This document shows positions 26,147-48,889 of a stretch of 64,000 bases of DNA, in pieces (the stretch's first letter is position 1; every line of letters begins with the position of its first letter). Origin of the DNA: Paraburkholderia flagellata (GTDB lineage: Bacteria; Pseudomonadota; Gammaproteobacteria; Burkholderiales; Burkholderiaceae); contig NZ_JAJEJT010000006.1 of the NCBI RefSeq assembly GCF_021390645.1, positions 124,001 to 188,000 on the forward strand, in the 5' to 3' direction. Both the position numbers and the translations under genes were made by a program. The notes under the pieces were generated by a model. The model was not told the origin of the DNA, ran no database searches, and saw only the letters and a program-made list of their open reading frames with translations.

Positions 26147-26215
26147 GCGAACGCAAGCATCACCGCTACCGATCGGCTCATCCGATCCATCCAATATCCG
26201 ATAAGGAGCCTTGTC

Positions 26216-31072: not shown

Positions 31073-31741
31073 TCAACGATTCTCGACGGTGCGGCACTCG
31101 TGCGATCGTATCGGTGGCGTTTTTTCCGTTGACTGCCGATACAGTACGGACGAAGCAAATTCCGCGAGCACTGCCTGATTCAACGGCTCGGTCGCACTCT
31201 GCGGATAGCACAGACTAACGAGCTGCATGCCTTCGAAAAGGCTCACGAAGCCGAGTGCGAGCGCGTCCGCCCGCAGCGGCAATGCGTTGTCGCTTTCCGT
31301 CAAGAGCGTTTGAATATGGGCGCTGACCTGCAAAAGCGTCTCGTGCCGCAACGCGTGAACGTGCTCCTGAAAAGCGCTGTCGCGGCGTGCGAGGAGGTAC
31401 GCCTCCACCCAAAGCGGAAAGCATTCATGTTCACTGCAGGAGCGGACGAAATGAGCAATCATGCGCGCCCTCGCTAGCTCAGTCGTGCCCTTCTCTTGAA
31501 AGATCGCCCGCAGACCCGCCTGCGCCTCTTCGGCATCGCGCCGTAACAGTTCCACCAGCAGGTCCTGTTTGCTCCTGAAATTGGAGTAGAACGCGCCCCT
31601 CGTGTACCCAGCGGCCTCGACGATGTCCTCCACGCTCGTGGCAGCGAAGCCCTTCTCGAGGAACATGGTCCTTGCGGCGCCGTACAGGCGCTCACGGGTC
31701 TGCTCTTTTCTGCGCGCGTGGCTCAGGCGTTCGGGCTTCAT
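31073..31741 (-). CDS. TetR-family regulator next to the molybdoenzyme operon
   Basis: Regulator of about 222 residues. Helix-turn-helix residues are FAATSVEDIVEAAGYTRGAFYSNFRSKQDLL (about residues 30-60). The ATG at 31741 (KPERLSHARRKEQTRERL) is preferred over an in-frame TTG four codons earlier. Upstream lies a minus-strand promoter (TTGACA-N17-TGTAAT) embedded in a 33-bp element shared with two other TetR loci in this window. The gene follows the Fe-S subunit gene on the same strand. It is likely the local regulator of the aromatic-degradation locus. Confidence 0.9.
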   Translation of the reverse strand: MKPERLSHARRKEQTRERLYGAARTMFLEKGFAATSVEDIVEAAGYTRGAFYSNFRSKQDLLVELLRRDAEEAQAGLRAIFQEKGTTELARARMIAHFVRSCSEHECFPLWVEAYLLARRDSAFQEHVHALRHETLLQVSAHIQTLLTESDNALPLRADALALGFVSLFEGMQLVSLCYPQSATEPLNQAVLAEFASSVLYRQSTEKTPPIRSHECRTVENR

Positions 31742-31857
31742 GGCGTGGCTCAAGGCGATCTCTCCGTCCGCGCTCGGCAGCGCAAAGACGAACCTGTGAA
31801 ATCGCCGTTTCTCGATGGTCCCGCTGAAGCCGGCTCTAGGCTCCTCAGCGGATACTC

Positions 31858-31970: not shown

Positions 31971-32834
31971 TCAGTTGACCTCAACCTTGCTTGGCGCCAG
32001 CGCGAGGCTGATTTCGCCCAGGTACACACTTTCGCCGACCACACACTCGCGCGACGCATTGCCAAGAGCGTGACGAATCTCGATCCGGTACATGCCACTA
32101 TTTTTCTCGAGACCACCGAACCGAAAATCGCCGAACGCGTCCGAGACAGTTTCTGCGACCCGCCGCTCGCCCGAGTACAGAACAATCGCTGCATCAACGA
32201 CGCATTCAACTACGCCCCCGACCGCAGCACTGACGCTCCCGCCTATGAAGCAGCTTTTCCAGCGTTTCAAGCCGCGGTACCACACGCGAGGTCTTGTTTC
32301 CAGATTGGGCAGCAAAACCTCGAGCCCTTCACGTCGGGCTTTCTCCGCCATCGCGGCGTCATCGAGCTTGACGGCCTCGAAAACGCCAGTGGGACAAGCC
32401 TGCTCGCAACGCGGATGCTGCCACCCCTGGTCGAGCAGTTGCGCGTCGAAGATCCAGGTCTGCGGCAGTTGCAGTTCCTCGTTCCAGACGATCGCCTTGT
32501 ACGGACAGGACTTGACGATGTCTTTGCGCCCTCGCGCCTTTTCCGGATCGATGATGACGATGCCGTCGGATCGTTTGCGGATTGCATCGCCACCGACGCG
32601 CATGCACGGCGCGTCGTCGCAGTGATTGCACATCACCGGCAAGTACGTCGTTTCGACCATGTGGGCGTCGCCCTGCACACGGCGCAGGATGCGAATTGGG
32701 CTTTCGGCACTGACCGCTGCAGGCGCGGCGTACCCAGGAAAGTCATTGCCGACGTGTTCATCGCGTGCAGCGATGACGCAGTTCTGGCAGTTCTCACACT
32801 GCCCGACCTTGATAACCAGATTCCACTTGCTCAT
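31971..32834 (-). CDS. Fe-S subunit of a transhydroxylase/resorcinol-hydroxylase-like molybdoenzyme
   Basis: Electron-transfer subunit of 287 residues, close to the roughly 275 of the pyrogallol transhydroxylase small subunit. Cysteine motifs are QCENCQNC (Cys13, 16, 19), MCNHCDDAPC, SCPYKAI and RCEQACP. A C-terminal transthyretin/Cna-like beta domain (AAIVLYSGERRVAETVSDAFGDFRFGGL) is typical of this subunit family. Compared with the family pattern, the fourth Cys of motif I is Ala, and the Cys-x-x-Cys of the last motif reads Trp-Ile-Phe-Asp. This leaves ligands for two [4Fe-4S] clusters instead of three. The gene starts 10 bases after the large-subunit gene, with a GAGGAG site. Confidence 0.88.
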   Translation of the reverse strand: MSKWNLVIKVGQCENCQNCVIAARDEHVGNDFPGYAAPAAVSAESPIRILRRVQGDAHMVETTYLPVMCNHCDDAPCMRVGGDAIRKRSDGIVIIDPEKARGRKDIVKSCPYKAIVWNEELQLPQTWIFDAQLLDQGWQHPRCEQACPTGVFEAVKLDDAAMAEKARREGLEVLLPNLETRPRVWYRGLKRWKSCFIGGSVSAAVGGVVECVVDAAIVLYSGERRVAETVSDAFGDFRFGGLEKNSGMYRIEIRHALGNASRECVVGESVYLGEISLALAPSKVEVN

Positions 32835-32844
32835 CGTGTGCTCC

Positions 32845-35835
32845 TCACGCCGCGCGACGGATCATGAAAGCGTCCGCGCCTTTCCACTTTTCAATCTGCA
32901 CAAGACATGAATTCGGACTCATGCTGCTTGTACCCGCCGTCTGGGGCCGATCGGGGGTCAGCAGGTTCATGCAACCGCCAATTTCCACGCACTCACCGTC
33001 TATTTCGATCATCTGGAATTCAGCACTCGCCTCATAAGACTTGACTACACCGGTGGTGACCAGAGGCGATACATCCGCCGCACAGATAACCGCAGCCCGG
33101 TCGTTGTACACCTTGACGAGATCTCGATGGGCAATGCCACGGGCCGCCGCGTCGACGGGACCGAGTCGCAACAGCCAGAAACGATGTCCGCCAATCAATG
33201 CACGATGATCTTCGATGCTGTTGACCGACGAGTTCTTGCCGTCGCAATGGGTATGGAAACTGTAACGGCTATGCGTGGCGATCAGTTGCAGTGGATACCG
33301 CTGGGCCAGTGGGGAGCGCAAGCCCTCCCACGACGGGATGTACCGGTTCACTGGCGGCCGCTCGGGGTTATCGGCCGTGTGCCGCTTCAGCAGCTCGGGT
33401 ACGAACTCGATCTTGCCGCTAGGCGTCTGCAGGCCCATGCCGAATTTTTCGGCATATTGCGACGGCATCGGATGCGGTTCCTGCAGATCCTTGCGCCGGC
33501 CTTCCGCGAACCAGCGCATATCCACCGGATGCCGCAATTCCGGCTTTTCGGTCGGCACAACGAAATAGCCCTTGCGGCAGAACTCGCGCCACGAAATGTG
33601 ATCCGGCAAATCCGACGAGTTGAATGCGCGCTTGACCCAGTCGAGTTCACTGCAGCCCTCGGTGAACACGCTGCCGAGTCCCAGACGGGTCAGAATGGCG
33701 GTGAAGATGTCGTAGTCGGAGCGAGATTCGCCCAAAGGTTCGATGCATTTATGTTGCAGCGTAATCATACGGTGGTTGACCGTGTTGAAGCCGTGATGCG
33801 CGTAGCCGCCGGAATTCGACCATTCGCCGATGTCCCACCGCTCCAGCGATGTGCATGCAGGCAGAATGATGTCGGCGAACTGCGCTTCGCCTTCCATCCA
33901 GATCGACTGATTGACCACGAACTCGATGCTCGGGTGACGGTAAGCGTCGGCCCAGCGCCCCGATTTCGTGACCGTGCTGAAGGCAGAACCGCCATAGCGA
34001 TAGATCATGTGGATCGGCGAATAACCGGGCATCGGGTAACTGAACGGTGCGAACTGCGCTTCCTGGGACAGGCCGTCCCACAGGTAGCCTGTCGCATGCC
34101 CGTTGATGATGGCATCGGGCAACTGCTGCCGCGGCACCATCTGCTTGACCGGATTCATGGTCAGGATGTGCGGCATGCGTTGATAGTTGTTCACGGCATT
34201 CGCGGTCCACGCGAGCTCGCCCGACATCCCACCGTCCGCGTAGCCCGGGAAGTAGAAGTTGAGGTCGTGCGGAACGCCGATTTCGAGGCAGCCGAAATTC
34301 ACGCCCGGCTTGCCCCATCCCTGCATCGCCATCATCATGATCATGCAACGCGCCCATTGGGCCCCCGTCGCACCGCGTCCAGCCCCGCCGAATCCTGCGC
34401 CCGTCATTCCGACGGCGAGATACACCTTCCTCGTCCCCCACCGCCGTGCGAGGGCTCGAACGTCCTTGGCGGGCACGCCGGTTTCCAGCTCCTGCCATTC
34501 GGGCGTTTTGGGCACGCCATCCGTCTCGCCCGTCAGGTAGGCCCGCCATTCGTCGAACCCGGTCGTCCGGTTGGCAACGTAATCCTTGTCATACAGCCCT
34601 TCCGTGAGCCACACATACATGATGGCGGTGGCGAGGGCCGCGTCCGTTTGCGGTCGGACCGGAATCCATCGGCCGCCCAGCAACTGGGCGGTCGGATTGC
34701 AATGCGGATCGATATGGACGAACTCGATTCCCAGTTCCTTGGCCCACAGACGCCGCGGCGTGCCTTCGAATCCGGCGTAGGCGCCATTCGTGCTTTCCGG
34801 GTCGCTGGACCAGAAGACGATCATTTCGGCTTCCTTAAGACAGTCCTCGATTCCGCCATAGCCGGAAGGCACGCCAACGCGCATCGAGTTGCCGAAGTGA
34901 TGCATGGCGCCCCAGTACCAACCCTCCCAGCTGTCCGGATTCGCGGCCACCCGTGTGAAGCCAATCAGGTTGGCAAAACGCGTGAGCGCGCTGAGGTAGT
35001 AGCCGATATTGCCCCACTGGTGGTGCGACGACATGGGAAACGTGATCGAGCCCGGACCGTGAACACGCTTTTGCCGGTTGATCTCTTTCGTGACAATGTC
35101 CAACGCCTCGTCCCAGCTGATCGGCACATAGCCGGACTTGCCACGGTTTTGCGGATTGCGTTCGCCGTCGGGGTCGAAATCGATCCGCTTCATCGGTTGA
35201 AGGATGCGCTTCTCAGAATAGACGAGCGATTTGATCGACAAGGCGTGCGGTGCGACCAGGCCGCGCCGTGGCGGGCTGAATCGGCGCCCGCGCGCTTCGA
35301 TCTCCCAGCTCGGCGCATCCTTGCTGTCGAGATCGACCGGCGTCACGCGAACGATGCGTCCATCTTTCACGTACACGAACAAAGGGCCGCCGTTGGTGCA
35401 CGTGGTGTAGCGCTGCGTGCCGTCGCGCATGCTCGTGCCCATCGGCAGGCTGATGGTTTGCATCATGCTCAGCGTTTGCATGAACCACACGAGCAGCTCA
35501 TCGTCGCCCTCAGTCACCACCTTGAAATTTTTCGCCGCGTGGATGATCTCCAGGTAGTCCGGAGTGGCGGAGAGAAATTTCAGGGCGGTGGGTACGTCCT
35601 TGAACAGCATGCGCACGTCCGGCTGCGGATGTCTGCCGGCACACGACCGGATGCGGCCATTCTTGAGCTTGATGACGCGACCGATGCTTTGATCCATGAG
35701 CCCGATCCACGCGACGAGATCGCGCTCCTTCAGCCGATCGCGATAGGCAGGGAAGCGGCGTGCCGTCAGGTCGAGGACCTTGGGCACGGCAAAGAGAATG
35801 GTCTTGAGGATCTGTCGTTTCACTTTTTGATCCAA
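32845..35835 (-). CDS. SCP2-fused molybdopterin oxidoreductase, transhydroxylase/resorcinol-hydroxylase-like large subunit
   Basis: DMSO-reductase-family protein of about 996 residues. Residues from about 135 onward follow the large subunit of pyrogallol-phloroglucinol transhydroxylase and resorcinol hydroxylase: GGPLFVYVKDGRIVRVTPVD, SSHHQWGNIGY (269-279), NPDSWEGW (299-306), MIVFWSSDPES, LPACTSLERWDIGEWSN, HKCIEPLGESRSDYDIF, LQTPSGKIEFV and MNLLTPDR. There is no N-terminal Fe-S motif, as in that family. The first 130 residues are an extra SCP2-like domain (IKLKNGRIRSC, HPQPDVRMLFKD, IHAAKNFKVVTEGDDELLVWF), so the protein is longer than the roughly 875-residue relative. Inferred role is water-derived hydroxylation of a phenolic ring. 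The start is non-ATG: TTG at 35835 or GTG at 35823. Confidence 0.9.
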   Translation of the reverse strand: MDQKVKRQILKTILFAVPKVLDLTARRFPAYRDRLKERDLVAWIGLMDQSIGRVIKLKNGRIRSCAGRHPQPDVRMLFKDVPTALKFLSATPDYLEIIHAAKNFKVVTEGDDELLVWFMQTLSMMQTISLPMGTSMRDGTQRYTTCTNGGPLFVYVKDGRIVRVTPVDLDSKDAPSWEIEARGRRFSPPRRGLVAPHALSIKSLVYSEKRILQPMKRIDFDPDGERNPQNRGKSGYVPISWDEALDIVTKEINRQKRVHGPGSITFPMSSHHQWGNIGYYLSALTRFANLIGFTRVAANPDSWEGWYWGAMHHFGNSMRVGVPSGYGGIEDCLKEAEMIVFWSSDPESTNGAYAGFEGTPRRLWAKELGIEFVHIDPHCNPTAQLLGGRWIPVRPQTDAALATAIMYVWLTEGLYDKDYVANRTTGFDEWRAYLTGETDGVPKTPEWQELETGVPAKDVRALARRWGTRKVYLAVGMTGAGFGGAGRGATGAQWARCMIMMMAMQGWGKPGVNFGCLEIGVPHDLNFYFPGYADGGMSGELAWTANAVNNYQRMPHILTMNPVKQMVPRQQLPDAIINGHATGYLWDGLSQEAQFAPFSYPMPGYSPIHMIYRYGGSAFSTVTKSGRWADAYRHPSIEFVVNQSIWMEGEAQFADIILPACTSLERWDIGEWSNSGGYAHHGFNTVNHRMITLQHKCIEPLGESRSDYDIFTAILTRLGLGSVFTEGCSELDWVKRAFNSSDLPDHISWREFCRKGYFVVPTEKPELRHPVDMRWFAEGRRKDLQEPHPMPSQYAEKFGMGLQTPSGKIEFVPELLKRHTADNPERPPVNRYIPSWEGLRSPLAQRYPLQLIATHSRYSFHTHCDGKNSSVNSIEDHRALIGGHRFWLLRLGPVDAAARGIAHRDLVKVYNDRAAVICAADVSPLVTTGVVKSYEASAEFQMIEIDGECVEIGGCMNLLTPDRPQTAGTSSMSPNSCLVQIEKWKGADAFMIRRAA

Positions 35836-35932
35836 TGGGAAGGCTGCGCAGGTGCAAACATCAGGGAATTACGGACCGGCTCCGCCGAGCGGGCATGCCG
35901 CTCAGGCGGGCACGATCATGTCTGGTGGTGGT

Positions 35933-36847
35933 TCAAAGACCCGGGAAAGCCGGGCCCCATTGCAACAATGTGTCTCGGCCGAACGGATAGCTCAAGGTAG
36001 GCGAGTCGCTGTTGACGAGGTCGCCGTCCACGTAGTGCTCCACATGGAAGCCGGCGGGATCGGTCCAGTAATCGAAAATCTGGCTGCCGTGGAAATGGCG
36101 GCCGATGCCCCAGCGGTGCTTGTAGCCCTTATCTGCCATGACCATGTGGCCAATGCCCACGTCATCGATATCGCGACATTCAAAGGAGGCGTGGTCCAGG
36201 CCTACCGCCTTGCCGCCGACGATGGCCAGTGTGTGGTGGTCGGTCCATGCCGCGCCTGTTTCCAGGTGCATGAAGGCGGCCACGACGTTTTTCTCGTCGC
36301 CCTGGTAGATCAGTTCCGACGTCTTCATGCCGAGCGTCTCGCGATACCACGAGATCAATCCCTGCGGGTCCGGCGAGAAGACGGCCGCATGGCCAAGCCG
36401 CTGAACGTGCGACGGGCCGAAGGCCGGGCGCTGGAAGTGGCCCAGCCGGTTTTTGGCATGGGAGTCATTCCATACAATCGGAGCGCCGCCCGACGGAATG
36501 ACTGGCAGACGTTCGGCGCCGAATACGAACTCCAGCCGACGGCCATCGGGATCGGCCCCCACCGTGTACAGGCCTCCGCCCGGATGCGGGCAATCGGTCA
36601 CAGGCGAATCAAAGCGGGCCGCCAATGTGTCGAGCGCCTCGCGAGAGCTCACGCGGAACCCGACACCGACAAATGCCGCCTCGCCTTGCGTCGAGACGTA
36701 GGAGAAAGGTGCGTCGCCGTAGCTGCGCAGATAAAGCGCGTCGCCGCCCTGTTGCCGATCCAGCAAACCGTAGTCGACCATGAAGTCGCGAACGGCAGCC
36801 AGGTCCGGGTGGCGAAAGATGACGTATTCGATGTCTTCGATGAGCAT
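35933..36847 (-). CDS. Type I extradiol ring-cleavage dioxygenase (VOC superfamily)
   Basis: Two-domain VOC protein of 304 residues. The C-terminal domain carries the Fe(II) triad: His153 in RLGHAAV, His219 in GLDHASF and Glu270 in GFHVEHYVDGD. The family motif RWGIGRHFHGSQIFDYWTDP precedes the Glu. Such enzymes cleave catechol-type rings next to the hydroxyls with O2. It lies between ompW and the molybdoenzyme large-subunit gene, 97 bases upstream of the latter. A hydroxylated product of that enzyme would be a fitting substrate. Confidence 0.9.
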   Translation of the reverse strand: MLIEDIEYVIFRHPDLAAVRDFMVDYGLLDRQQGGDALYLRSYGDAPFSYVSTQGEAAFVGVGFRVSSREALDTLAARFDSPVTDCPHPGGGLYTVGADPDGRRLEFVFGAERLPVIPSGGAPIVWNDSHAKNRLGHFQRPAFGPSHVQRLGHAAVFSPDPQGLISWYRETLGMKTSELIYQGDEKNVVAAFMHLETGAAWTDHHTLAIVGGKAVGLDHASFECRDIDDVGIGHMVMADKGYKHRWGIGRHFHGSQIFDYWTDPAGFHVEHYVDGDLVNSDSPTLSYPFGRDTLLQWGPAFPGL

Positions 36848-36923
36848 GGAAAATCTCGCGATTGATGCGTTGGCGGCACGACCCGCCGCCAGGATTGATG
36901 TCAGGAAATGGTGGTCGTCCCCG

Positions 36924-37664
36924 CTAGAATGTGTAGGCGACGTTCACAAAAACGTTAATGGGTTCGATCCGGAGCGTCGACTTCGAAACGATCTGCGTTC
37001 CGTTTGCGGTTTGTCCGTATATGGTCATGTGCGTCTGGATCGGCATATAGCCAACTGACGCTCCGACCGACCAGTGTTTGGCAAACGCGTAGCTTGCCCC
37101 GACCTCGAACACGGGGTTCCACGATGCACTGAGGGTCGCGTGTATGGATCCGCCAGGACCGACACTATCGGTGATGAACTGGCTGTTGGTTGCGCGAACC
37201 TGGGTGAACCACGTGTAGTTCACGCCCAATCCGACGAAAGGACGAAATTTCGACTGAGCCTCGAACAGGTGATATCGAAGCTCGATCGCGGGCGGCATCG
37301 GCCTCGTCGTGCCGAGGGTGCCGTACTTCGAGAGCGTCCCATCTCCAACCAGATTCACTGTTAGGGGCAGGCCAAAGAGAGTGGCGATGCCGATGTGGTC
37401 GGTCACGTAGTACTCGGTCGTAATGCCGAGCGTATTCGTCGACGACGCGTGCGCACCAGTTCCCGCTAATTGCTGATTGACCGGCATACCACCCACGCTT
37501 TCCACGGTAAGCGGCGTGGCATGACCCTGTGGCGCTACGTAAAGCCACCCTGTCGCCAGCGTAAAGCTTCCGGCTGATTGCGCATTCGCGTTTCCAGCAA
37601 GCGCAGCCGAACAGATAAAACCTGCCATCACGGCAGGCCGAACATTTTTCCTGTAGTTCCTCAC
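36924..37664 (-). CDS. OmpW-family outer-membrane protein
   Basis: Eight-stranded OmpW-type barrel of 246 residues. A signal peptide (…MAGFICSAALAGNANA) and repeated beta-strands follow, including the characteristic PPAIELRYHLFEAQSKFRPFVGLGVNYTWF, with C-terminal VFVNVAYTF. The start is a GTG at 37664 with a GGAGAA site. OmpW proteins let hydrophobic molecules pass and are often encoded in hydrocarbon or aromatic degradation clusters. It is the first gene of the set that includes the dioxygenase and molybdoenzyme. Confidence 0.91.
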   Translation of the reverse strand: MRNYRKNVRPAVMAGFICSAALAGNANAQSAGSFTLATGWLYVAPQGHATPLTVESVGGMPVNQQLAGTGAHASSTNTLGITTEYYVTDHIGIATLFGLPLTVNLVGDGTLSKYGTLGTTRPMPPAIELRYHLFEAQSKFRPFVGLGVNYTWFTQVRATNSQFITDSVGPGGSIHATLSASWNPVFEVGASYAFAKHWSVGASVGYMPIQTHMTIYGQTANGTQIVSKSTLRIEPINVFVNVAYTF

Positions 37665-37948
37665 GCGTCTTCTCCTGCCTCATCGGTCAACTATCTTTTT
37701 TATCGTGCACACGGCTTTGCGAACCGCCCATTGGTCAACCTCGCTGGATCGGCAGTCGTATGTTTATGCCGGATCCAAAAAAATCATCTCCCCCTATTAA
37801 ATAGGCATACTAAATACATCGACATGAGTTATCCCGATCCCAGCGTTGCTTCCTGCCTGTTCGCCGTATCGAGTCCCGACCAGCGAACGTCTCTTACTTC
37901 TCTTCGCCCTTCTGAACGGTTGCCAGGTTTGGCAAGCCGTCCGGCATC

Positions 37949-38188
37949 TCAGTGAACACGCATCACGAGCCGCTCGGCCTGCGGCGGGAACACGCTCCAC
38001 GAACCGTCGCGGTGCCGGAAAAAAAACAGCCCAACCGGCCTTGTCGGCAAAAGCAGCTCAATATGCACACAGTTTCCCGCATGCGACTGGGGATGACTTA
38101 ACCGGGTAATGCGCACCGGGGTCCCGGAAGTCGGCGCAAGCCATTTTTCAACAAGCGAACGTAAGGATCTCTCTGATGCAATACCCAT
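37949..38188 (-). CDS. Small conserved-looking hypothetical protein
   Basis: Putative 79-residue cytoplasmic protein beginning GIASERSLRSLVEKWLAP and ending FFFRHRDGSWSVFPPQAERL. The ATG at 38188 has a GGGGAAG site about nine bases upstream. The composition is that of a real protein and similar short proteins occur in Burkholderia, as far as I recall; no function is known. It is flanked by non-coding sequence (37665-37948 and 38189-38307). In 37665-37948 lies the ompW promoter area, AT-rich near 37770-37820, with nothing else recognisable. Confidence 0.55.
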   Translation of the reverse strand: MGIASERSLRSLVEKWLAPTSGTPVRITRLSHPQSHAGNCVHIELLLPTRPVGLFFFRHRDGSWSVFPPQAERLVMRVH

Positions 38189-38307
38189 CTTCTTCCCCAA
38201 CCAAAAACCAGTGACATTCGCGATTCAGCCGTGCCATCACCGCGCATGCGAGTGACTGGACACTTGCGTCGATGCGAGAAACCATGTCACTTCGAAATCT
38301 TGTGCGT

Positions 38308-40296
38308 CTATGACACTCCGTTGCCGTCACCGCTGCTGCCCGAACCCTGCGCGACAGCGATCGAAAACTCGAACGGAAAGCGCCCGAGCGCGGAAGCCGC
38401 CAATGATTCGAGTTCCGAGCCGGGAAGTTCGACGTGAACTGAAATCCCACACAAGGCATCGTCAGCGATGCTAACGGTTGCGCCCTCGATGCCAGCGTCC
38501 ACGAGCGCCGACCGCAGGGCGTCTACCGTTTCAAGCCGCTTCAGCGCGGGCTTGAATATCTTGCCGACACCCGTCAGGGGCATGGCTTCAACGATCCGGA
38601 TGCCCTTGGGGAACGCAGCTCGCTCGCTGATCTCGTCGCGCAGGAACGCGGCCATTTCTGCTTCATTTGCCGATGTGCCTGGCTTGAGCTGCACGTAGGC
38701 GACTGGCAGTTCGCCCGCGTGCATGTCAGGACGCCCCACCGCCGCGGCAACCTGGACCGCTGGATGGCGGTGCAACGCTTCTTCGATCGCTGCAGGGTCG
38801 ATGTTGTGTCCGCCACGAATAATCAGTTCCTTCTTACGTCCTGTGAGCCAGAAGTAACCGTCTGCGTCGCAGCGACCGAGATCGCCTGTATTGAGCCATC
38901 TGCCGCCATCAGCCAGGTCCAGCCAGATGCCGTTGTTCTGCTCCGGCCGCATATAGCCGATGAAAACATTCGGACCGGAGATCACGAGTTGACCAACCTC
39001 GTCAGCAACGCAGTCTCGTACATAACAGCCCGCTTCATCGACCATCACGGCTTTCATGGCCTGGCCCGGAACACGAAGGCCGATTGAGCCGACCCGCCGT
39101 TCGCCAAGTGGCGGATTGATGCTGCTAATGCAGGTACCTTCCGTGAGGCCATAGCCTTCGAGGATCCTGATTCCGGTTTGCGCCTGAAACGCACGCAGCA
39201 ACTCCACTGGCATCGGCGCGGCGCCGCACAACCCGTATTCAAGCGAACCGATATCGCGCTCGTCAACGGGAACGTCCAGCAGCGAGCCATAGAGGGTCGG
39301 CACGCCGCTGAAAAAGTTGATACGGTAATGCGCGACGATATCCCAGAAGCGTTGGACAACGCCTTCTCCGCGATAGCCTTGCGGCGTGCCCATCACGACA
39401 TGCGCGCCGCGTGAAAACGGCAGCAGACCGGTCACCATGACGGCGTTGACGTGGAAGAGCGGCAATCCGCAGAAGATCGTCTTGCCCGGACCCACGCTTT
39501 CACCGAGGAATTGTCCGGCGCTCCATGCATTGGCCACCTCGTTGCCGTGCCGGCGCATCGCGATTTTTGGCAGGCCTGTAGTGCCGCCCGTGCAGAAGTA
39601 GGACGATGCGTCATCGCTGGTCACCCGGTGCGGGGTGGAGAGCGCCATGCCCGGCTCCCGTGCGACGGCTTCGCCGAAGTCGTGGATGCTGATGTGCGTA
39701 GGAACCGCGCCTCGCACACCTTCCTCGCCATGCAACCTCGAGCATTCGCCGCGCTGAAGCATTCGGGCCGCAAATCGCTGTTCACCCGGCGCATGGTCGG
39801 CAAGATTGATCAGCACGAGATGCTTGAGCGACGCAACCTTGTGCAAGACCGCCTGCGCTTTCGGCCACAGGTCCGTCCCGGGATACGGCGCCAAAGTGAC
39901 AAGCACGCTGGCACCCGAGGCAGTGAGCAACTCGCCTATCGCGCCGCTTTCGAGCAGTGGATTGATCGCGCAGACAATGCCGACCGCCTCGCCGCCCCAG
40001 ACCACAAAGTGCGTTTCGGGCAGATTCGGCAACACATAGGCGACGACCGTGTCTCGCTGCACACCCAGTCGTGACAACATGTTCGCTGTGCGCGTGATAT
40101 CGCGCACCAGTTCGCTGTAAGTCCAGCGCTCCGGATTCGCGTAGTCGTCCGCGGTTGCGAAGAACGAAAGCGCGGGTGCCGATGGATTGATCGCGGCGCC
40201 CCGGCAGATCATTTCGTAGGTGCTCGACGGAAGATCCGTCGGCTGCCCCTGCGATTCGATAGCGAGGACATCCTGCTCGTTAGCGACGGCTTTCAT
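38308..40296 (-). CDS. Acyl-CoA synthetase (AMP-forming)
   Basis: Adenylating CoA ligase of 662 residues. The phosphate-binding loop is SSYFCTGGTTGLPKIAMRRH, the A5-type motif is LEGYGLTEGTC, the A7/A8 region is WLNTGDLGRCDADGYFWLTGRKKELIIRGGHNI, and the catalytic Lys region is LTGVGKIFKPALKR. The roughly 100-residue C-terminal extension after this Lys is longer than usual. Its ATG overlaps the FAH stop in ATGA. It probably activates a carboxylic acid formed by ring cleavage, or the starting aromatic/alkyl acid. The substrate is not determinable from sequence. Confidence 0.93.
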   Translation of the reverse strand: MKAVANEQDVLAIESQGQPTDLPSSTYEMICRGAAINPSAPALSFFATADDYANPERWTYSELVRDITRTANMLSRLGVQRDTVVAYVLPNLPETHFVVWGGEAVGIVCAINPLLESGAIGELLTASGASVLVTLAPYPGTDLWPKAQAVLHKVASLKHLVLINLADHAPGEQRFAARMLQRGECSRLHGEEGVRGAVPTHISIHDFGEAVAREPGMALSTPHRVTSDDASSYFCTGGTTGLPKIAMRRHGNEVANAWSAGQFLGESVGPGKTIFCGLPLFHVNAVMVTGLLPFSRGAHVVMGTPQGYRGEGVVQRFWDIVAHYRINFFSGVPTLYGSLLDVPVDERDIGSLEYGLCGAAPMPVELLRAFQAQTGIRILEGYGLTEGTCISSINPPLGERRVGSIGLRVPGQAMKAVMVDEAGCYVRDCVADEVGQLVISGPNVFIGYMRPEQNNGIWLDLADGGRWLNTGDLGRCDADGYFWLTGRKKELIIRGGHNIDPAAIEEALHRHPAVQVAAAVGRPDMHAGELPVAYVQLKPGTSANEAEMAAFLRDEISERAAFPKGIRIVEAMPLTGVGKIFKPALKRLETVDALRSALVDAGIEGATVSIADDALCGISVHVELPGSELESLAASALGRFPFEFSIAVAQGSGSSGDGNGVS

Positions 40297-41249
40297 GCGG
40301 CCTCTGCGATGACGACGTTGCGCTGGGTGCCAAGATCGATCGAGCCATCCTGGCTAACGATACGTGCTTCGACCACATCGCCATCCTGAAGGTACTGTGC
40401 TCGCCCGGCTTGCAACGCGAGAAAGAGACGCCATTTCTCCGCTTCGGGCAGCTGCGCCGCGGCGCGTTGCTTTTCCGGTGACGGAATGATCAGCGCGCAA
40501 CCGGACGGCGTCCCCGTTGCGAGCAGGTCGCCGACGTGCAGGTCTTGAACGCCGGACAGCTCGGTCAATGTCTCTGCCGGACCGTACACAAGACCCGAAG
40601 TGGAATCGTTCTGCCGAACCGTTCCGTTGACGGTCAGCGTCAGCACGAACTCCTTGAGCTTCGGCATGTCGTGCTTTTCGAGCAGGCAAAGATACGGGCC
40701 GACCGGGCCGAACGTACGAAAACTCTTGCCCTTGTAGAACTGCATCTGTGGAATCTGCACATCGCGCGCGGAATAGTCGTTCACGATCACGGCGCCGGCG
40801 ACGTAGTCGTGCAGGTTCTCGTCGGTAATCGTTGTGCGGGTCGTGACGTCGCGCTTGAGGACAAGACCGAGTTCGATCTCGTAGTCGAGGAACCGCACTG
40901 AATTCGGCTTCACCAGCTTCGAGTCCGCAGGAACGATGCAGCTCGTGGCCTTCGTGAAGATCATGTTGAATTTCTTCGCATCCGGGTCCATGCCGGATTC
41001 GATCATGTGCTGGCGGTAATTCGCGCCCTGGCAGATGAACTGCTGATTGGCGGTTACGGGCGAGAGCCATTGCACGTCCGCTTCGGGAAGCGTGGGACCA
41101 TCCAGCGTCAATAACCGCTCGACCGGATTGGCGTGGATAAACTCGGCGGTCGTCTTGAACTCGCCGGGAATCGGCGTGATAGCGTTGTTGGCCACTACGC
41201 CCCACTGGGCGCGGCCATCGTGCAGATAATGCAGAACATGAATTGCCAT
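40293..41249 (-). CDS. Fumarylacetoacetate-hydrolase-family protein
   Basis: FAH-fold enzyme of 318 residues. Metal-binding residues occur in FLDYEIELGLVL (E-x-E) and in the downstream VNDYSARDVQIPQ (Asp). QGANYRQHM and TGTPSGCALIIPSPEK are further family motifs. Members hydrolyse or decarboxylate beta-diketone or 2-oxo acid products of ring cleavage. The gene is 33 bases after an extradiol dioxygenase gene and overlaps the CoA-ligase start by four bases. I infer that it acts on the meta-cleavage product. Confidence 0.93.
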   Translation of the reverse strand: MAIHVLHYLHDGRAQWGVVANNAITPIPGEFKTTAEFIHANPVERLLTLDGPTLPEADVQWLSPVTANQQFICQGANYRQHMIESGMDPDAKKFNMIFTKATSCIVPADSKLVKPNSVRFLDYEIELGLVLKRDVTTRTTITDENLHDYVAGAVIVNDYSARDVQIPQMQFYKGKSFRTFGPVGPYLCLLEKHDMPKLKEFVLTLTVNGTVRQNDSTSGLVYGPAETLTELSGVQDLHVGDLLATGTPSGCALIIPSPEKQRAAAQLPEAEKWRLFLALQAGRAQYLQDGDVVEARIVSQDGSIDLGTQRNVVIAEAA

Positions 41250-41282
41250 GTTGTCTGTCTCCGGATTCGATAAAGGGGTGCG

Positions 41283-42353
41283 TCAGGCAAAAATCTTGAG
41301 CAGTGCCCGAAGCCTCGCCAGCGTGACGTCGGGGCTTCGGCGCAGGTTTGCGATCAGCGCCGCGATGCTCGCAAGCGTCAATCGGGGCTTGGTGAAGCTG
41401 CTCGGCATCGTCGGCCCCCATTGGGCCATCGCCTCGCGGCTCACGGCGTGGATTCCCGTGGGTGCGTCGCTGGTGAAAAGATCGCCGTCGCAGTAGTGCT
41501 CATGCTTGTCTCCCCACGGGTCCTGCCAGTAGTCGAAAATCTGGCTCCCGAGGATATGTCGGCCGATGCCCCACGCATGTGTCCATCCGCTCTTGCGCAG
41601 GATGCGCTGGCCCATACCGACTGCGTCCGCATCGACGAGCTCGTATGCGCTATGGCTGTATTTCGGGGCGAACGTCTGGGCGAGCGCGAGCGTGTGATGA
41701 TCGGCGGGTTTGTCTCCGAGATCGAGCCGCATGAACGCGACAGCCGGTGACCCATCGGGCAGCACCTGCACGTCGCTGGGGATAAAACCAAACTGGCGCG
41801 TGTACCACGCACAGGTTTCCTGATAATCGGCGAGTTCCAGCACCACATGCCCAAGCCTGATGATCTCAGGGGCGCTCTCGGGGGGGCGCTGCGTGCCGTT
41901 GACGCGAACGGCGGCATCGACGGAATTGAACGCCAGGGATAGCCGGTGCGGCAACGCAGAGGCGGGCGCCTGGCCCCAGATCGCATCGACACGAAAACCG
42001 GACGGATCCTCCAACTCCACCACGTAGCCGCCGCCCGGCAGCGCGGACGCTTTCACCGCCGAAGCGCCCGGCAGCCTGGCGAGCGCCTGCAGTTCGGCTT
42101 CGCTGCCGACCTGCAGGCCGAAGCCGACAAATCGCGCTTTGGACGCCTTTCGTACGACATAACAGAAGTGCGACGCAGCCGTACCGCGCAGAAGCAGCAT
42201 CTCTTCGCCACGCGTTACCGTTCGGAGCCCGAAATCATTGAGAAACCGTTCGGCTTGCCCGACGTCCGGCCGATCGAATATGAGGTAGGCCAACGCGGTC
42301 GCTTTTGCCGTGGGATCCGGGTGACGAGCCGGCTGTGCAGTAGTCAGTTTCAT
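41283..42353 (-). CDS. Type I extradiol ring-cleavage dioxygenase (VOC superfamily), second copy
   Basis: VOC-fold dioxygenase of 356 residues, homologous to the enzyme at 35933-36847. Likely Fe(II) ligands are His169 (RLGHVVL), His234 (KYSHSAY) and Glu285 (DKHEHYCDGD), with the shared motif WGIGRHILGSQIFDYWQDP. It has N- and C-terminal extensions relative to the first copy. It leads the VOC-FAH-CoA ligase operon. The 330 bases upstream contain a palindromic leader and a promoter/operator shared with a divergent TetR gene. Confidence 0.9.
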   Translation of the reverse strand: MKLTTAQPARHPDPTAKATALAYLIFDRPDVGQAERFLNDFGLRTVTRGEEMLLLRGTAASHFCYVVRKASKARFVGFGLQVGSEAELQALARLPGASAVKASALPGGGYVVELEDPSGFRVDAIWGQAPASALPHRLSLAFNSVDAAVRVNGTQRPPESAPEIIRLGHVVLELADYQETCAWYTRQFGFIPSDVQVLPDGSPAVAFMRLDLGDKPADHHTLALAQTFAPKYSHSAYELVDADAVGMGQRILRKSGWTHAWGIGRHILGSQIFDYWQDPWGDKHEHYCDGDLFTSDAPTGIHAVSREAMAQWGPTMPSSFTKPRLTLASIAALIANLRRSPDVTLARLRALLKIFA

Positions 42354-42390
42354 GGCGGACGGTAATCAGGTGGTTGGGATCGGTGACGCA

Positions 42391-42445
42391 GCGCGCAGCG
42401 CTGGCGCGCCGCACCCCGTGCGCCTGCGAGCGCTCGCAGGCGCAC
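42391..42445. repeat. Two adjacent strong hairpins in the VOC operon leader
   Basis: A perfect 28-bp palindrome at 42418-42445 (half-site GTGCGCCTGCGAGC) stands next to a near-perfect inverted repeat at 42391-42409 (GCGCGC around AGCGCT). Both lie in the presumed 5' leader of the minus-strand operon, between its promoter (about 42615-42638) and the ATG at 42353. They would fold very stably in RNA, as an attenuator or mRNA stabiliser, or could bind a dimeric protein as DNA. Confidence 0.6.
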
Positions 42446-42606
42446 CGGACGGGCAATTCGCCGGCGCTAGATCGATTGCGGGTCGCAATGCCCGGATCGT
42501 CGGATGGGTAAGGTGATGCCGGTCGCTGGGCGCGATTCCGATTCCGATTGCTGTCTCCACAGCCACTCCGTCTGTTTTAGTTAGACCGGCTTCTGATGCC
42601 GATGAT

Positions 42607-42660
42607 GACATTAAACTCATCGCTGATCGTTTTGTCAATAAAGACATTAGAATCTATACT
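42607..42660. promoter_or_regulatory. Shared promoter/operator element, copy A (divergent)
   Basis: Plus-strand: GACATTAAACTCA, 3 bases, CTGAT, 4 bases, TTGTCAAT (42607-42639). The minus-strand promoter is TTGACA (42638-42633), 17 bases, TTTAAT (42615-42610), for the VOC-FAH-ligase operon. The plus-strand promoter is TTGTCA (42632-42637), 17 bases, TATACT (42655-42660), for the TetR gene at 42688. The two -35 boxes overlap, and TGTC-N6-GACA forms an inverted repeat over them, a natural TetR operator position. Confidence 0.8.
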
Positions 42661-42687
42661 GTGGTTATACCCAGACTTGGATCCACC

Positions 42688-43443
42688 ATGACAACCACGA
42701 CAAAGCGCGCAGCAGCGAAGCGTGCCGCGCCTGCGGCGCCCGCCTCCCCGGCTCCCGTCATCGAAGAAAAAGAGCCTCGCGGTGCGCGCCGCAAGCGCGA
42801 GACGCGCGCCCGTCTGCTCGACGCCGCTCTCAGGCTGATGGCCGAAAGGGGCATGGAGGGCGTGGCGATCAATGAAATCACGGAGGCCGCCGATGTCGGC
42901 TTTGGCTCGTTCTACAACCACTTCGAGTCGAAGGAAGCGATCTACGCGACGCTAGTCGACAACGTTTTCGAGGAGTTTGCGGACGTCCTCGATCGCCTCG
43001 CGGGGGGCATCTCCGACCCCGCGGAAGTGGTGGCCGTCTCGGTGCGCCACACTGTCCTGCGTGCGCGGCACGATCCCGTGTGGGGACGCTTTCTGATTCG
43101 CGAAGGGTTTTCGGCGCCTGCGCTGAGTCGCGGGCTAGGCCAGCGGCTCCTGCGCGACATTCGAAACGGCATTACGGCAAAGCGATTTGTCGTTGCCGAC
43201 CCGTTTGTCGGCTATCTTGCGGTGGGTGGCACAGTGCTCTCCGCCATCGCGGCCGAGTTGAACTATGTCGCGCCGGGCGCAAGCGCCGCGGGCATGCTGA
43301 AGGAACTGGGTTTCAGCGGCGAGCACTTTCCGGAGCGCACGGCAGCCATGCTGCTGCAGATACTCGGCCTGAAGCGCGCGGAGGCCGAAAAGATCGCCGC
43401 GCGTCCACTCCCCGTCGTCGAGGCAGCCGACGAGGCAGTTTGA
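42688..43443 (+). CDS. TetR-family regulator of the VOC/FAH/CoA-ligase operon
   Basis: Regulator of about 251 residues from the ATG at 42688. An Ala/Pro/Lys-rich N-terminal tail precedes the helix-turn-helix (VAINEITEAADVGFGSFYNHFESKEAIY). It is clearly paralogous to the TetR at 53662: both have SDPAE(V/A) followed by VAVSVRHT(V/L)LRA, PVWG..LIREG and LSRGLGQRL. It is divergent from the dioxygenase operon, with overlapping promoters. It probably represses both directions until an aromatic ligand binds. Confidence 0.93.
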   Translation: MTTTTKRAAAKRAAPAAPASPAPVIEEKEPRGARRKRETRARLLDAALRLMAERGMEGVAINEITEAADVGFGSFYNHFESKEAIYATLVDNVFEEFADVLDRLAGGISDPAEVVAVSVRHTVLRARHDPVWGRFLIREGFSAPALSRGLGQRLLRDIRNGITAKRFVVADPFVGYLAVGGTVLSAIAAELNYVAPGASAAGMLKELGFSGEHFPERTAAMLLQILGLKRAEAEKIAARPLPVVEAADEAV

Positions 43444-43512: not shown

Positions 43513-44253
43513 TTATACGCCGGAGCGCGGAGCCGCCGCCCTGTCAACCGCCGTTTGGGCACCGCCTGAAAATGGCGGGCAGGACAGCGTTGTCATTCCC
43601 GTTTTGCTGGACGCACCCGCCGGGCCAGACGGCCGATCCGCCGCGGTCGCAGCGAAGGCGCGCACGACCTTGGCTATCTGAGCAGCGATTGCGTCGATCG
43701 CACGACGATGCCCGTCGACGATCGCCTGATACCCGTCAGACACGGGCTCGCTCACGGTGCTGTGGCAAGTCAGGGTCTCCTGGCCCGCAGACCTGCTTAC
43801 ACTCCATACGGCGTCAACCAGTACATGTGAACCGGGCCACGATTCAAAGCGCTGAATGTCGACGCCGACCTGATAGACGGGACCCTCCCCACCACGGCCA
43901 ACCGCGCTGGCAGCGGATGCGCCCGCCTGCTGGCTCACGCGAGCAGCAAGTGCATAGCGTATCTCGTCCGGAAGGGCCGATGACCAGCGATCGTCTTCCA
44001 GCACCTGCACCTGGGCCGGGTTGACCTGTACCACAAGCTGACTTCTCGCGACCGCGGCCGGCACTTTCACCGGGCGCACGTCGATCTGCAAAGCGGGGCT
44101 TGTCGTATTCCTCGCGATGGTCGGCTCTGCGTCGGTTCCGAGCGTATAGAAGCGCGTCGCGGGCGTTGCGCACGCCCCCAGCAGGGCGAGCCCGACGACA
44201 GAAACGAGTGTCCTCACCGTGGTGCGGAAAGAGCGGGATTGCCTTGCGATCAT
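43513..44253 (-). CDS. pqiC: PqiC-like lipoprotein
   Basis: Lipoprotein of 246 residues of the PqiC/DUF330 family (ABC-type transport auxiliary lipoprotein). The lipobox is LALLGAC (Cys28). The mature part has the family opening TRFYTLGTDAEP and VDVRPVKVPAAVARSQLVVQV-like strands, with LEDDRWSSALPDEIRYALAAR. Its ATG overlaps the pqiB stop (ATGA). With PqiA and PqiB it should form a bridge for lipids across the periplasm, sitting on the outer membrane side. Confidence 0.91.
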   Translation of the reverse strand: MIARQSRSFRTTVRTLVSVVGLALLGACATPATRFYTLGTDAEPTIARNTTSPALQIDVRPVKVPAAVARSQLVVQVNPAQVQVLEDDRWSSALPDEIRYALAARVSQQAGASAASAVGRGGEGPVYQVGVDIQRFESWPGSHVLVDAVWSVSRSAGQETLTCHSTVSEPVSDGYQAIVDGHRRAIDAIAAQIAKVVRAFAATAADRPSGPAGASSKTGMTTLSCPPFSGGAQTAVDRAAAPRSGV

Positions 44254-45845
44254 TGCTGGTCTCCTTTTTTGCCAAACAGCAGCGCCTGCGGATGCCGCTC
44301 CAGGTATTCGGAGAGCGCATTGAGCGACTGCAGCGTGCGCGTGAGCTGCTGCATGGCGTCCTGAACGTCCGACTGCATCGGCGCAGTCTGCCGCAGCGTC
44401 GATTCCGCGGTCGCGAATGTCTTTTGCGCGGCAGCGAGCGTGTCGCGTGCCTGCGGCACGACCTCGGTGTCCATATGTCCGAACAGCCTGCTGGCGTTCT
44501 CCAGCGCACCGTCGAGATGGGCGCCGATCCGGTCGAACGGCACCTGGTTCAGTTTCCTTGCGATGTCGGCCACCTGCACCTGGAGCTCGTCGAGCGTGTT
44601 CGGCACAGTCGGCAGTTCGATCGGATTGCTGTGCACGTCGACGCTCGCGCGAGGCGCTTTCGGGAACATGTCCAGCGCGACATACAACTGTCCCGTCAGG
44701 AGATTGCCGGTCCGCAATTGCCCGCGCAGCCCTTCCGTCACCAGGTGCTGCAGCATTTCGTGCCCGCCTGCCGTGTCTGGCGCAGGCAGCGCCTCGCTGG
44801 AGCGCCGGCTGAGCCGGTCAGGGTAAAGCGCCATCGCCACCTTCATGCTGAAGCTCTTCTGCTTTTCGTCGTACTCGATACCAATCTCGGTCACCTGCCC
44901 CAGCGCAATCCCGCGAAGATCGACGGGTGCGCCAACAGACAGCCCACGCAACGACTGATCAAAACGCATGACCACATTGAGCGGCTGGCCGTCGGGCTCG
45001 CGCATGGCATCCGATTCGTCCGTGGCGAGCCGGAACTCCGCCCTATCCGCTGCCGGTCGTCCAGCTTCCTGCCCGGCCGGAGACTGGAATGCCAGCCCTC
45101 CAACGACGACCGTCGCGAGCGATTGCGTATTGAGCTTCAGTCCGTTGGAATCGAGACGCAGATCGACGCCGCTTGCGTGCCACCACCGCGTATTGGTACC
45201 GACGTACTGGTCGTACGGTGCATTCACGAAGACATTCACGATGACGCCCGCGCCGTGAGGATCGAGCGAGTAGCCAATCACCTGGCCCGCCTGGATACGG
45301 TGGTAGAAGATGGGGGCACCGATATCGATCGAGCCCAGCGACTCGCCGCGCAGCGTGTACTGATGCCCTGGCTGCCCCGTGGTGACAATGGGCGGGCTTT
45401 CAAGACCGAGGAACGCGGTTTGCCTCTCGGTCGAGCGCCCGATGTCCACGCCGATGTACGCGCCAGAGAGCAGCGTACCGAGGCCCGAGATGCCGTTGGC
45501 GCCAACGCGCGGGCGTACCACCCAGAACCGCGTGCCTTGCGTCGCAAATTTCCCTGCGTCCTTGCTCAACTGGATACTCGCGCTGACGCGCCGCAAATCC
45601 GTGGACAACGCAATGCCTTGCACGACACCGATTTCAACGTCCTTGTACTTTACCTTCGTCTTGCCTGCCTCAATGCCATCGGCATTATTGAAGGTAACCG
45701 TCACGACAGGCCCTCTTTCTGCAACGGATTTGACCACCAGACCAACACCGATCAATGCGGAGATCAGAGGTACTAACCAGATGAGGGATGGCAGCCAACG
45801 TTTGCGCGGCTTGAGTTCAGGGCGGGATAGTTTGGAAAGATGCAT
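44250..45845 (-). CDS. pqiB: PqiB-like MCE-domain protein
   Basis: Periplasm-spanning MlaD/MCE protein of 531 residues (E. coli PqiB 546). An N-terminal membrane anchor (WLPSLIWLVPLISALIGVGLVV) is followed by three MCE domains, with recurring G-x-x-V/I-x-x-G patterns (VKYKDVEIGVVQGIALS, IQAGQVIGYSLD, VDLRGIALGQVTEIGI). The C-terminal helical region is expected to form a needle. It starts 8 bases after pqiA. Confidence 0.94.
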   Translation of the reverse strand: MHLSKLSRPELKPRKRWLPSLIWLVPLISALIGVGLVVKSVAERGPVVTVTFNNADGIEAGKTKVKYKDVEIGVVQGIALSTDLRRVSASIQLSKDAGKFATQGTRFWVVRPRVGANGISGLGTLLSGAYIGVDIGRSTERQTAFLGLESPPIVTTGQPGHQYTLRGESLGSIDIGAPIFYHRIQAGQVIGYSLDPHGAGVIVNVFVNAPYDQYVGTNTRWWHASGVDLRLDSNGLKLNTQSLATVVVGGLAFQSPAGQEAGRPAADRAEFRLATDESDAMREPDGQPLNVVMRFDQSLRGLSVGAPVDLRGIALGQVTEIGIEYDEKQKSFSMKVAMALYPDRLSRRSSEALPAPDTAGGHEMLQHLVTEGLRGQLRTGNLLTGQLYVALDMFPKAPRASVDVHSNPIELPTVPNTLDELQVQVADIARKLNQVPFDRIGAHLDGALENASRLFGHMDTEVVPQARDTLAAAQKTFATAESTLRQTAPMQSDVQDAMQQLTRTLQSLNALSEYLERHPQALLFGKKGDQQ

Positions 45846-45853
45846 CGTCTGTT

Positions 45854-47239: not shown

Positions 47240-47411
47240 ACAGAAATAAACCGGAAATACGGGATTTTCATACTGGCGCAACGGCCGAATCACACGGCCG
47301 GCGTGGCGGCCCTTCAATCGATGTGTCCAACGGCTATCGCGTGGCTCGACCCGGTGCTCAACGGCGCGGGCGTTCCTGTCGGTTCGCCCTCGCGTTTCAC
47401 GAACGCCTGAG

Positions 47412-48887: not shown

Positions 48888-48889
48888 GA

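Follow-up and report, generated by a model that had tools for sequence, protein, structure and literature searches.

A molybdoenzyme is encoded among ring-cleavage genes in Paraburkholderia flagellata

The window analysed in this study is a stretch of 64,000 nucleotides from Paraburkholderia flagellata, whose Paraburkholderia-like genome comprises 9.0 Mb in 6 contigs, and our subject is a minus-strand gene cassette within it that sets a molybdoenzyme beside enzymes of aromatic ring cleavage. In reading order, its genes encode an extradiol dioxygenase of the VOC family (VOC2), an FAH-family hydrolase, a coenzyme A (CoA) ligase, an OmpW outer-membrane channel, a second VOC protein (VOC1) and the large (L) and small (S) subunits of the molybdoenzyme, all inside positions 31971-42353 (Table 1). 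The sizes of the intergenic gaps (VOC2-FAH 33 bases, FAH-CoA ligase -4, CoA ligase-OmpW 643, OmpW-VOC1 76, VOC1-L 97 and L-S 10) suggest two transcription units; promoter-like sites were fewer in the window DNA than in shuffled sequence and terminator-like sites about equally frequent. An initial annotation of this DNA had named OmpW, the FAH-family hydrolase, the CoA ligase and TetR regulators. Pfam and NCBIfam matches agree with it on the first three, and both TetR genes are indeed present, flanking the interval just beyond its ends with TetR2 divergent upstream and TetR1 downstream.

The same genome carries a second cassette, at locus L103 (G000:C5:372001-392000; loci are labelled here by L and a number), which comprises TetR, VOC2, FAH, CoA ligase, OmpW, L and S. 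Its L and VOC2 are 90.7% and 85% identical to those of the window and VOC1 is absent. The closest named homologues of the window's L come from P. sacchari and Paraburkholderia sp. CNPSo 3274 (97% identity).

Table 1. The cassette and its flanking regulators, in window coordinates
Feature	Position	Strand	Evidence or remark
TetR1, TetR-family regulator, downstream of S	31073..31753	-	PF00440 1.5e-15; similar gene in some related loci
S, iron-sulfur small subunit, Reh-type molybdoenzyme	31971..32834	-	AthS (4v4c_B) 1.2e-56; 9/12 AthS N-terminal cysteines
L, catalytic large subunit, AthL/Reh type	32845..35835	-	PF21423, PF00384, PF01568; AthL 2.3e-274
SCP2-like N-terminal domain of L, residues 1-140	35416..35835	-	alignment, structure model, Foldseek
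VOC1, putative type I extradiol dioxygenase, dispensable in relatives	35933..36847	-	PF00903 3.9e-12; catalytic residues
OmpW outer-membrane channel	36924..37664	-	PF03922 2.7e-27
AMP-binding acyl-CoA ligase	38308..40296	-	PF00501, PF13193; NCBIfam PRK07529 936.5 bits, cut-off 632
FAH-family hydrolase	40293..41249	-	PF01557 2.1e-46
VOC2, putative type I extradiol dioxygenase, cassette core	41283..42353	-	PF00903 1.2e-6; catalytic residues
Slot for flavin monooxygenase of sister cassettes, empty in window	42354..42660	.	308 bases vs ~1.8 kb when occupied
TetR2, divergent TetR-family regulator	42661..43443	+	PF00440, PF21306; match in 50/52 cassettes

L and S resemble resorcinol hydroxylase

The first domain of L matches PF21423 (1.2e-27, 95.7 bits against a cut-off of 27) and both molybdopterin domains are also present. 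PF21423 was not found in 14 control genomes, and a phylum sample of 398 genomes that included our own, with at most 16 candidates scored in each, yielded no second carrier above the cut-off. The best solved relative of L is AthL (4v4c), the large subunit of Pelobacter pyrogallol-phloroglucinol transhydroxylase, which aligns to residues 142-986 at 2.3e-274 and 916 bits, the best match to a dimethyl sulfoxide (DMSO) reductase reaching 2.6e-67 and 230 bits. In a quick tree of 34 rows, the L proteins and AthL fall on one side and TorA, DmsA and BisC on the other, with a Shimodaira-Hasegawa-like approximate likelihood ratio (SH-aLRT) of 100; AthL and the outgroups form long branches in this tree and the exact place of AthL is unsure. 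On the match to AthL and the tree placement, a reductase of the DMSO or trimethylamine N-oxide type was rejected; L groups with AthL and the Aromatoleum (Azoarcus) anaerobium LuFRes1 homologue and not, as would have told against the initial annotation, with a non-hydroxylating DMSO-reductase family.

At nine AthL positions that we take to form the active site (roles and numbering assumed, the letters themselves checked in the alignment), the window's L keeps seven, namely H144, Y152, D174, S175, W176, Y404 and Y560, and the serine ligand of molybdenum is retained. W354 is replaced by phenylalanine, as in 83 of the 91 L rows, and C557 by serine. Residues 1-140 form a domain that occurs in all 24 rows of a hand-chosen alignment, LuFRes1 included, and is absent from AthL. 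Its structure model has a predicted local distance difference test score (pLDDT) of 78.5 and a predicted template modelling (TM) score (pTM) of 0.69, and Foldseek matched it to alkylsulfatases, UbiJ (ubiquinone synthesis) and SCP2 proteins at 7e-6 to 1e-3 with TM scores of about 0.5. Pfam detects SCP2 weakly in 5 of the 24 rows and gives the window's domain no name.

The small subunit lacks three of the twelve N-terminal cysteines of AthS (AthS positions 23, 126 and 129). The same three are missing from all 77 aligned S sequences, the window's included, and a fourth (145) is missing from two, as one would expect had a single cluster of the three been lost, on our presumed assignment of AthS cysteines to shared clusters. 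The window's S thus departs from the twelve-cysteine, three-cluster AthLS transhydroxylase. By contrast, the two features by which this analysis itself defines the resorcinol hydroxylase (Reh) type, the SCP2-like domain and the reduced cysteine set, are both present, and because of them we set L/S apart from AthLS and class it, by sequence, as Reh-type rather than as a true transhydroxylase. Of the two labels in the initial annotation, transhydroxylase or resorcinol hydroxylase type, only the latter is kept; that annotation mentioned neither the SCP2-like domain nor the loss of cysteines, nor the second cassette.

L and AthL have PF21423, the serine ligand and His, Asp and Tyr active-site positions in common. 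A redox-neutral transhydroxylase of the Pelobacter kind, which would move hydroxyl groups between polyphenols while the dioxygenases remove the product, would fit the seven retained positions. We regard it as quite improbable, given that L shares more identity with the LuFRes1 homologue at locus L074 (64.5%) than with AthL (50%) and that the two Reh features, both shared with LuFRes1, part it from AthLS.

We identify the L074 homologue, which is carried on the LuFRes1 plasmid, as RehL by inference from its strain. RehLS works with an E1/E2 partner of the hydroxyhydroquinone dehydrogenase type, and the LuFRes1 locus has E1/E2 genes together with a sigma-54 activator, no VOC or FAH being found there. 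The window differs in carrying oxygen-dependent cleavage genes in their place, and no E1/E2-type neighbours were detected among the scanned proteins of its cassette. Resorcinol hydroxylase is described in PMC10100899 as a cytoplasmic serine-ligand enzyme that makes hydroxyhydroquinone in anaerobic respiration. In the tree, the window's L lies inside a set of 17 rows (SH-aLRT 100) to which the LuFRes1 homologue does not belong. Fourteen of these rows have VOC and FAH nearby; the others are L048 and L061, on contigs shorter than 5 kb, and L065, where 22.6 kb contain neither VOC nor FAH.

A second type of L also exists in the genus, at L104, L108 and L098 (61-64% identical to the window's L), with MarR and Gfo/Idh/MocA-type neighbours and without the VOC and FAH pair. 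A moaA-family gene accompanies four Pseudomonas loci and was checked in one of them (L051, 370 bits over 284).

L recurs with ring-cleavage genes in several gene orders

VOC1 and VOC2 are 36% identical, and the alignment bears out the complete His-His-Glu triads that had been claimed for both, the triad being invariant among ten hand-chosen rows. In VOC2 it occupies positions 169, 234 and 285, and the second-sphere His, His and Tyr at 220, 266 and 275 are likewise invariant in the ten rows; we assume that these residues have the roles of their BphC/XylE-type counterparts. A profile built from the alignment retrieves catechol 2,3-dioxygenase (XylE), homoprotocatechuate 2,3-dioxygenase (HPCD) and 2,3-dihydroxybiphenyl dioxygenase (BphC). 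The NCBIfam equivalog cut-offs for HpaD, catechol 2,3-dioxygenase and BphC are not reached (VOC1 at best 77 bits against 321.4, VOC2 at best 63.2), so VOC family membership does not give the substrate. The hydrolase belongs to the FAH superfamily through PF01557. An ordinary meta-cleavage route was rejected, as no alpha/beta hydrolase, hydratase or aldolase family appears among the ten scanned proteins.

When 8000 candidate proteins were scored, at least 4347 proved to be relatives of L at 1e-50. Species genomes were scanned separately and yielded 320 relatives, of which we used the best 80, a sample that leans to close kin, and plasmid and own-genus loci were added; we retained the 73 loci with no less than 7.5 kb of sequence ahead of L and 6 kb behind it. 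Searched anywhere in the locus with profiles made from cassette members, which favours these loci, 63 contain VOC, 62 FAH and 61 both, as against none of 20 control stretches of 20 kb at hand-picked positions in one genome, our own, with either. A chance gathering of genes was rejected on this comparison. Leaving out two known duplicate loci gives 59 of 71, and taking one row per cluster of 80% L identity gives 10 of 17. Co-occurrence outside this genome, on which the initial annotation had staked its reading, is thus wide. The gene order is VOC2-FAH-CoA ligase-OmpW-(VOC1)-L-S in Paraburkholderia and its kin, VOC1-L-S-VOC-FAH in Crenobacter and Pseudomonas benzenivorans, VOC-FAH-L-S in Hydrogenophaga, Ramlibacter and Pelomonas, and L-S-CoA ligase-VOC-VOC-FAH-FadL in Ensifer and Rhizobium. 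The VOC/FAH/L/S arrangement is a recurrent module.

The loci without VOC, FAH or both are L065, L072, L074, L080, L082, L083 and L091 (both VOC only), L093, L098 (FAH only), L104, L108 and L109, and the E2-family gene of L074 occurs in L072 and L080 as well. In the Rugamonas loci L083 (8749-9873) and L091, a divergent BphC-type VOC gene adjoins L with no FAH match.

L/S and a flavin monooxygenase replace each other within one genus

VOC2 matched 93 plasmid records, and we inspected six with new cassettes. The cassette of Burkholderia multivorans consists of TetR, a flavin adenine dinucleotide (FAD) monooxygenase, VOC2 (73%), FAH, an acyl-CoA synthetase and OmpW, and has no L/S. An FAD monooxygenase is also paired with VOC and FAH in Streptomyces, Rhodococcus, Microvirga and Sphingopyxis (PF01494 confirmed in each except Rhodococcus); the arrangement in B. 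cenocepacia is looser. Among 144 genomes of the window's own genus, 44 match VOC2 at 1e-80 or better, in 53 places, and 52 of these were analysed, the window and L103 included and one 45%-identical place in genome G019 left out. Their generalised order is TetR-(flavin monooxygenase)-VOC2-FAH-CoA ligase-OmpW-(VOC1)-L-S. Every one carries a hydroxylase: L/S only in 34, the flavin gene only in 14 (counted by hand to include L193, where it lies in two distant pieces, and L227, a match of 34% identity), and both in four (L192, L217, L221 and also L209, in which the reading frame of L seems to be broken). Fisher's test for mutual exclusion gives 1.7e-9, kinship being ignored.

The space between TetR2 and VOC2 measures 1.81-1.92 kb in 15 of 17 flavin-gene cassettes (exceptions L222 and L227), 0.15-0.46 kb in 22 of the 24 that have L but lack any flavin trace (exceptions L224 and L111), and 0.34-0.82 kb in 8 of 9 with flavin remnants (exception L219). 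The window cassette has no flavin-gene match at E 1e-4 and the gene is absent from the L103 cassette too. Flavin-gene fragments of 27 to 139 residues persist in 10 cassettes with intact L, on the same strand and within about 0.75 kb upstream of VOC2; conversely, L fragments of 43 and 53 residues lie downstream of the CoA ligase in L207 and L212, where the flavin gene is intact. A quick tree of VOC2, FAH and CoA ligase, from which carriers of both hydroxylases were left out, implies at least 6 changes between the L and flavin labels, and if only well-supported branches are counted, the minimum is 6 changes for the L group and 4 for the flavin group. Eight genomes have two analysed cassettes each, and in six of these the pair includes both types of hydroxylase. 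The solved proteins most closely related to the flavin enzyme are aromatic and related flavin monooxygenases, including 2-hydroxybiphenyl 3-monooxygenase; elsewhere in our own genome homologues of the flavin enzyme are 36-38% identical (the best two of eight).

On the simplest reading of these patterns, the two enzymes serve the same function before extradiol cleavage. Because L/S and the flavin gene replace each other, with remnants in both directions, L/S most likely performs the ring hydroxylation carried out elsewhere by a flavoprotein that uses O2 and the reduced nicotinamide cofactor NAD(P)H. Reductive dehydroxylation, in which L/S would remove a hydroxyl group as gut catechol dehydroxylases do, has in its favour membership of the same large enzyme superfamily. 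We consider it extremely improbable, however, as parts of PMC7028382 place catechol dehydroxylases apart from pyrogallol hydroxytransferase, L falls in the AthL clade (in a tree made without catechol dehydroxylases) and its slot-mate belongs to the hydroxylating flavoproteins.

A proposed pathway for a hydrophobic phenol

We judge it probable that the window holds a catabolic cassette for a hydrophobic phenol, in which hydroxylation by L/S would precede VOC cleavage and the FAH and CoA ligase steps, with hydroxylases exchanged among relatives and the two VOC genes united by a merger of modules. The substrate would enter through OmpW. L/S would then add a hydroxyl group, derived from water if family knowledge applies, to create a vicinal diol, passing two electrons to an acceptor; sister cassettes would instead rely on a group A-type flavin monooxygenase, with O2 and NAD(P)H, for this step. 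VOC2 (or VOC1) would use O2 to open the ring beside the diol, the FAH-family hydrolase would split the polyoxo acid into pyruvate and a beta-keto acid bearing the side chain, and the CoA ligase would activate the released acid. The coupling of molybdenum-dependent hydroxylation to O2-dependent cleavage that the initial annotation had proposed is strengthened by the reciprocal flavin replacement; its even treatment of the two dioxygenases is not, VOC2 being the core enzyme and VOC1 dispensable.

Clues to the substrate come from neighbours in other clades. L050 encodes a dioxohexanoate-cleavage-type enzyme (512.8 bits over 430), L075 and L079 encode Kce-family proteins that score under the cut-off, L069 an acetoacetate-decarboxylase-family protein (Pfam 3.6e-24), and L069, L073 and L092 malonic-semialdehyde-reductase-family proteins (281-284 bits over 152), L092 showing no VOC or FAH. 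By annotation, the Streptomyces flavin cassette includes an acetoacetate-CoA ligase and a malonic semialdehyde reductase, and Kce-type proteins occur in Sphingopyxis and B. cenocepacia. These neighbours suggest beta-keto acids or malonic semialdehyde as intermediates. A cleaved trihydroxybenzene gives a trioxo acid, the hydrolysis of which yields pyruvate and a beta-keto acid, the kind of compound on which beta-keto-acid cleavage enzymes act; together, neighbours and chemistry therefore point to a meta-dihydroxy substrate, most likely with a ring of the resorcinol type. Its presumed hydrophobicity is suggested by the outer-membrane partners, which are OmpW in the window, FadL/TodX in Rhizobium and a DUF1302-DUF1329-BNR-MMPL set in other clades. 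The counterpart of this set in Castellaniella, AmeA-D, appears in portions of PMC6394551 as an efflux system tied to monoterpene metabolism. Alkylresorcinols and flavonoids are both candidate substrates, between which we make no choice.

The proposed logic resembles the orcinol pathway of Pseudomonas putida ORC, in which a flavoprotein hydroxylates a resorcinol-type ring before extradiol cleavage and hydrolysis of a trioxo acid; the window would differ in its first enzyme. A further likeness, by description and not by FdeE, FdeC or IfcA sequence, is to the fde (naringenin) and ifc (isoflavone) clusters, in which, according to passages of PMC11069340, the A-ring of the flavonoid is the target of a group A flavin monooxygenase and a glyoxalase-family protein. 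The order of a hydroxylase followed by a glyoxalase-family protein is common to both; the clusters have a flavin hydroxylase and, in the same passages, an alpha/beta hydrolase, whereas the window has a molybdoenzyme and an FAH-family hydrolase, and neither of our genome's two cassettes has a flavin monooxygenase as first enzyme. Among open-licence papers, we recognised no description of a molybdenum hydroxylase combined with extradiol cleavage.

Several observations weigh against the proposed pathway. Among the 91 L rows, six have isoleucine in place of aspartate D174 of AthL, and the window differs from AthL at positions 354 and 557; the decarboxylase and all but one of the three Kce-family proteins miss their NCBIfam cut-offs; 12 of the 73 L loci fall outside the VOC and FAH pairing; and the two hydroxylases occur together in four cassettes (L being interrupted in one), so that they may not be fully redundant. 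Our genome also encodes NarG (narG, 2160 bits), and L/S could serve oxygen-free metabolism too, while extradiol cleavage needs O2. The double carriers and NarG, together with the E1/E2 dehydrogenase genes found without VOC beside the LuFRes1 homologue, would suit an arrangement in which L/S and VOC/FAH are co-regulated neighbours that act on different substrates or under different conditions, for example nitrate-respiring oxidation of a phenol on the one hand and cleavage of another catechol on the other. Such an arrangement seems unlikely to us, since L/S and the flavin gene are exchanged within a constant VOC2-FAH-CoA ligase-OmpW cassette, leaving remnants both ways, and since the linkage of L with VOC and FAH persists across several gene orders.

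Water-using and oxygenase-based attacks on phenols are usually treated as separate, and here one cassette appears to accept either hydroxylase. If the pathway holds, the range of Reh-type enzymes would widen to numerous soil and root bacteria that are presumably aerobic, and the cassettes would be a source of candidate genes for degrading plant compounds of the resorcinol type. The gene remnants, which record exchange in both directions, offer a natural system for asking why a bacterium trades an oxygenase for a molybdoenzyme. One possible answer, which we put forward tentatively and regard as somewhat doubtful as a whole, is that the molybdenum and flavin hydroxylases are interchangeable and have repeatedly displaced each other in this genus as an adaptation to low oxygen, the SCP2-like domain helping the Reh-type enzyme to deliver its electrons to the quinone pool. 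Delivery to quinones is proposed because the nearest solved folds of that domain include UbiJ and because the redox-neutral AthL does without it. If so, the swap would replace a first step that uses up O2 and electrons by one from which two electrons are gained.

VOC1 as a possible trace of a module merger

VOC1 is intact in 5 of the 52 cassettes (the window, L180, L199, L208 and L215) and fragmentary, between OmpW and L, in four more (L182-L185). The idea that both VOC genes form the core was rejected, VOC1 being missing or fragmentary in 47 of 52, in a set for which VOC2 was the search key. Intact or not, it accompanies 9 of 38 cassettes with L and none of 14 without (p 0.09, suggestive only). 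Genes 75-77% identical to VOC1 lie directly upstream of L in Crenobacter, two Pseudomonas and one betaproteobacterial genome. Because VOC1 adjoins L in other genera and decays within this one, it looks as though a VOC1-L-S module joined a VOC2-FAH-CoA ligase-OmpW cassette, leaving a redundant dioxygenase that is now being lost. The two dioxygenases would then be the scar of this merger, after which, if we have its order right, both the flavin gene and VOC1 would tend to decay.

Flanking genes

Past TetR2, positions 43513-48956 hold genes for a PqiC-like lipoprotein, MlaD, PqiA and outer-membrane efflux. The MlaD family is present in 17 of the clustered loci, and a lipid-transport or efflux unit often borders the cassette. 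At 25331-27382, on the plus strand, a gene for a creatininase-family protein adjoins one for a YNCE-like beta-propeller protein.

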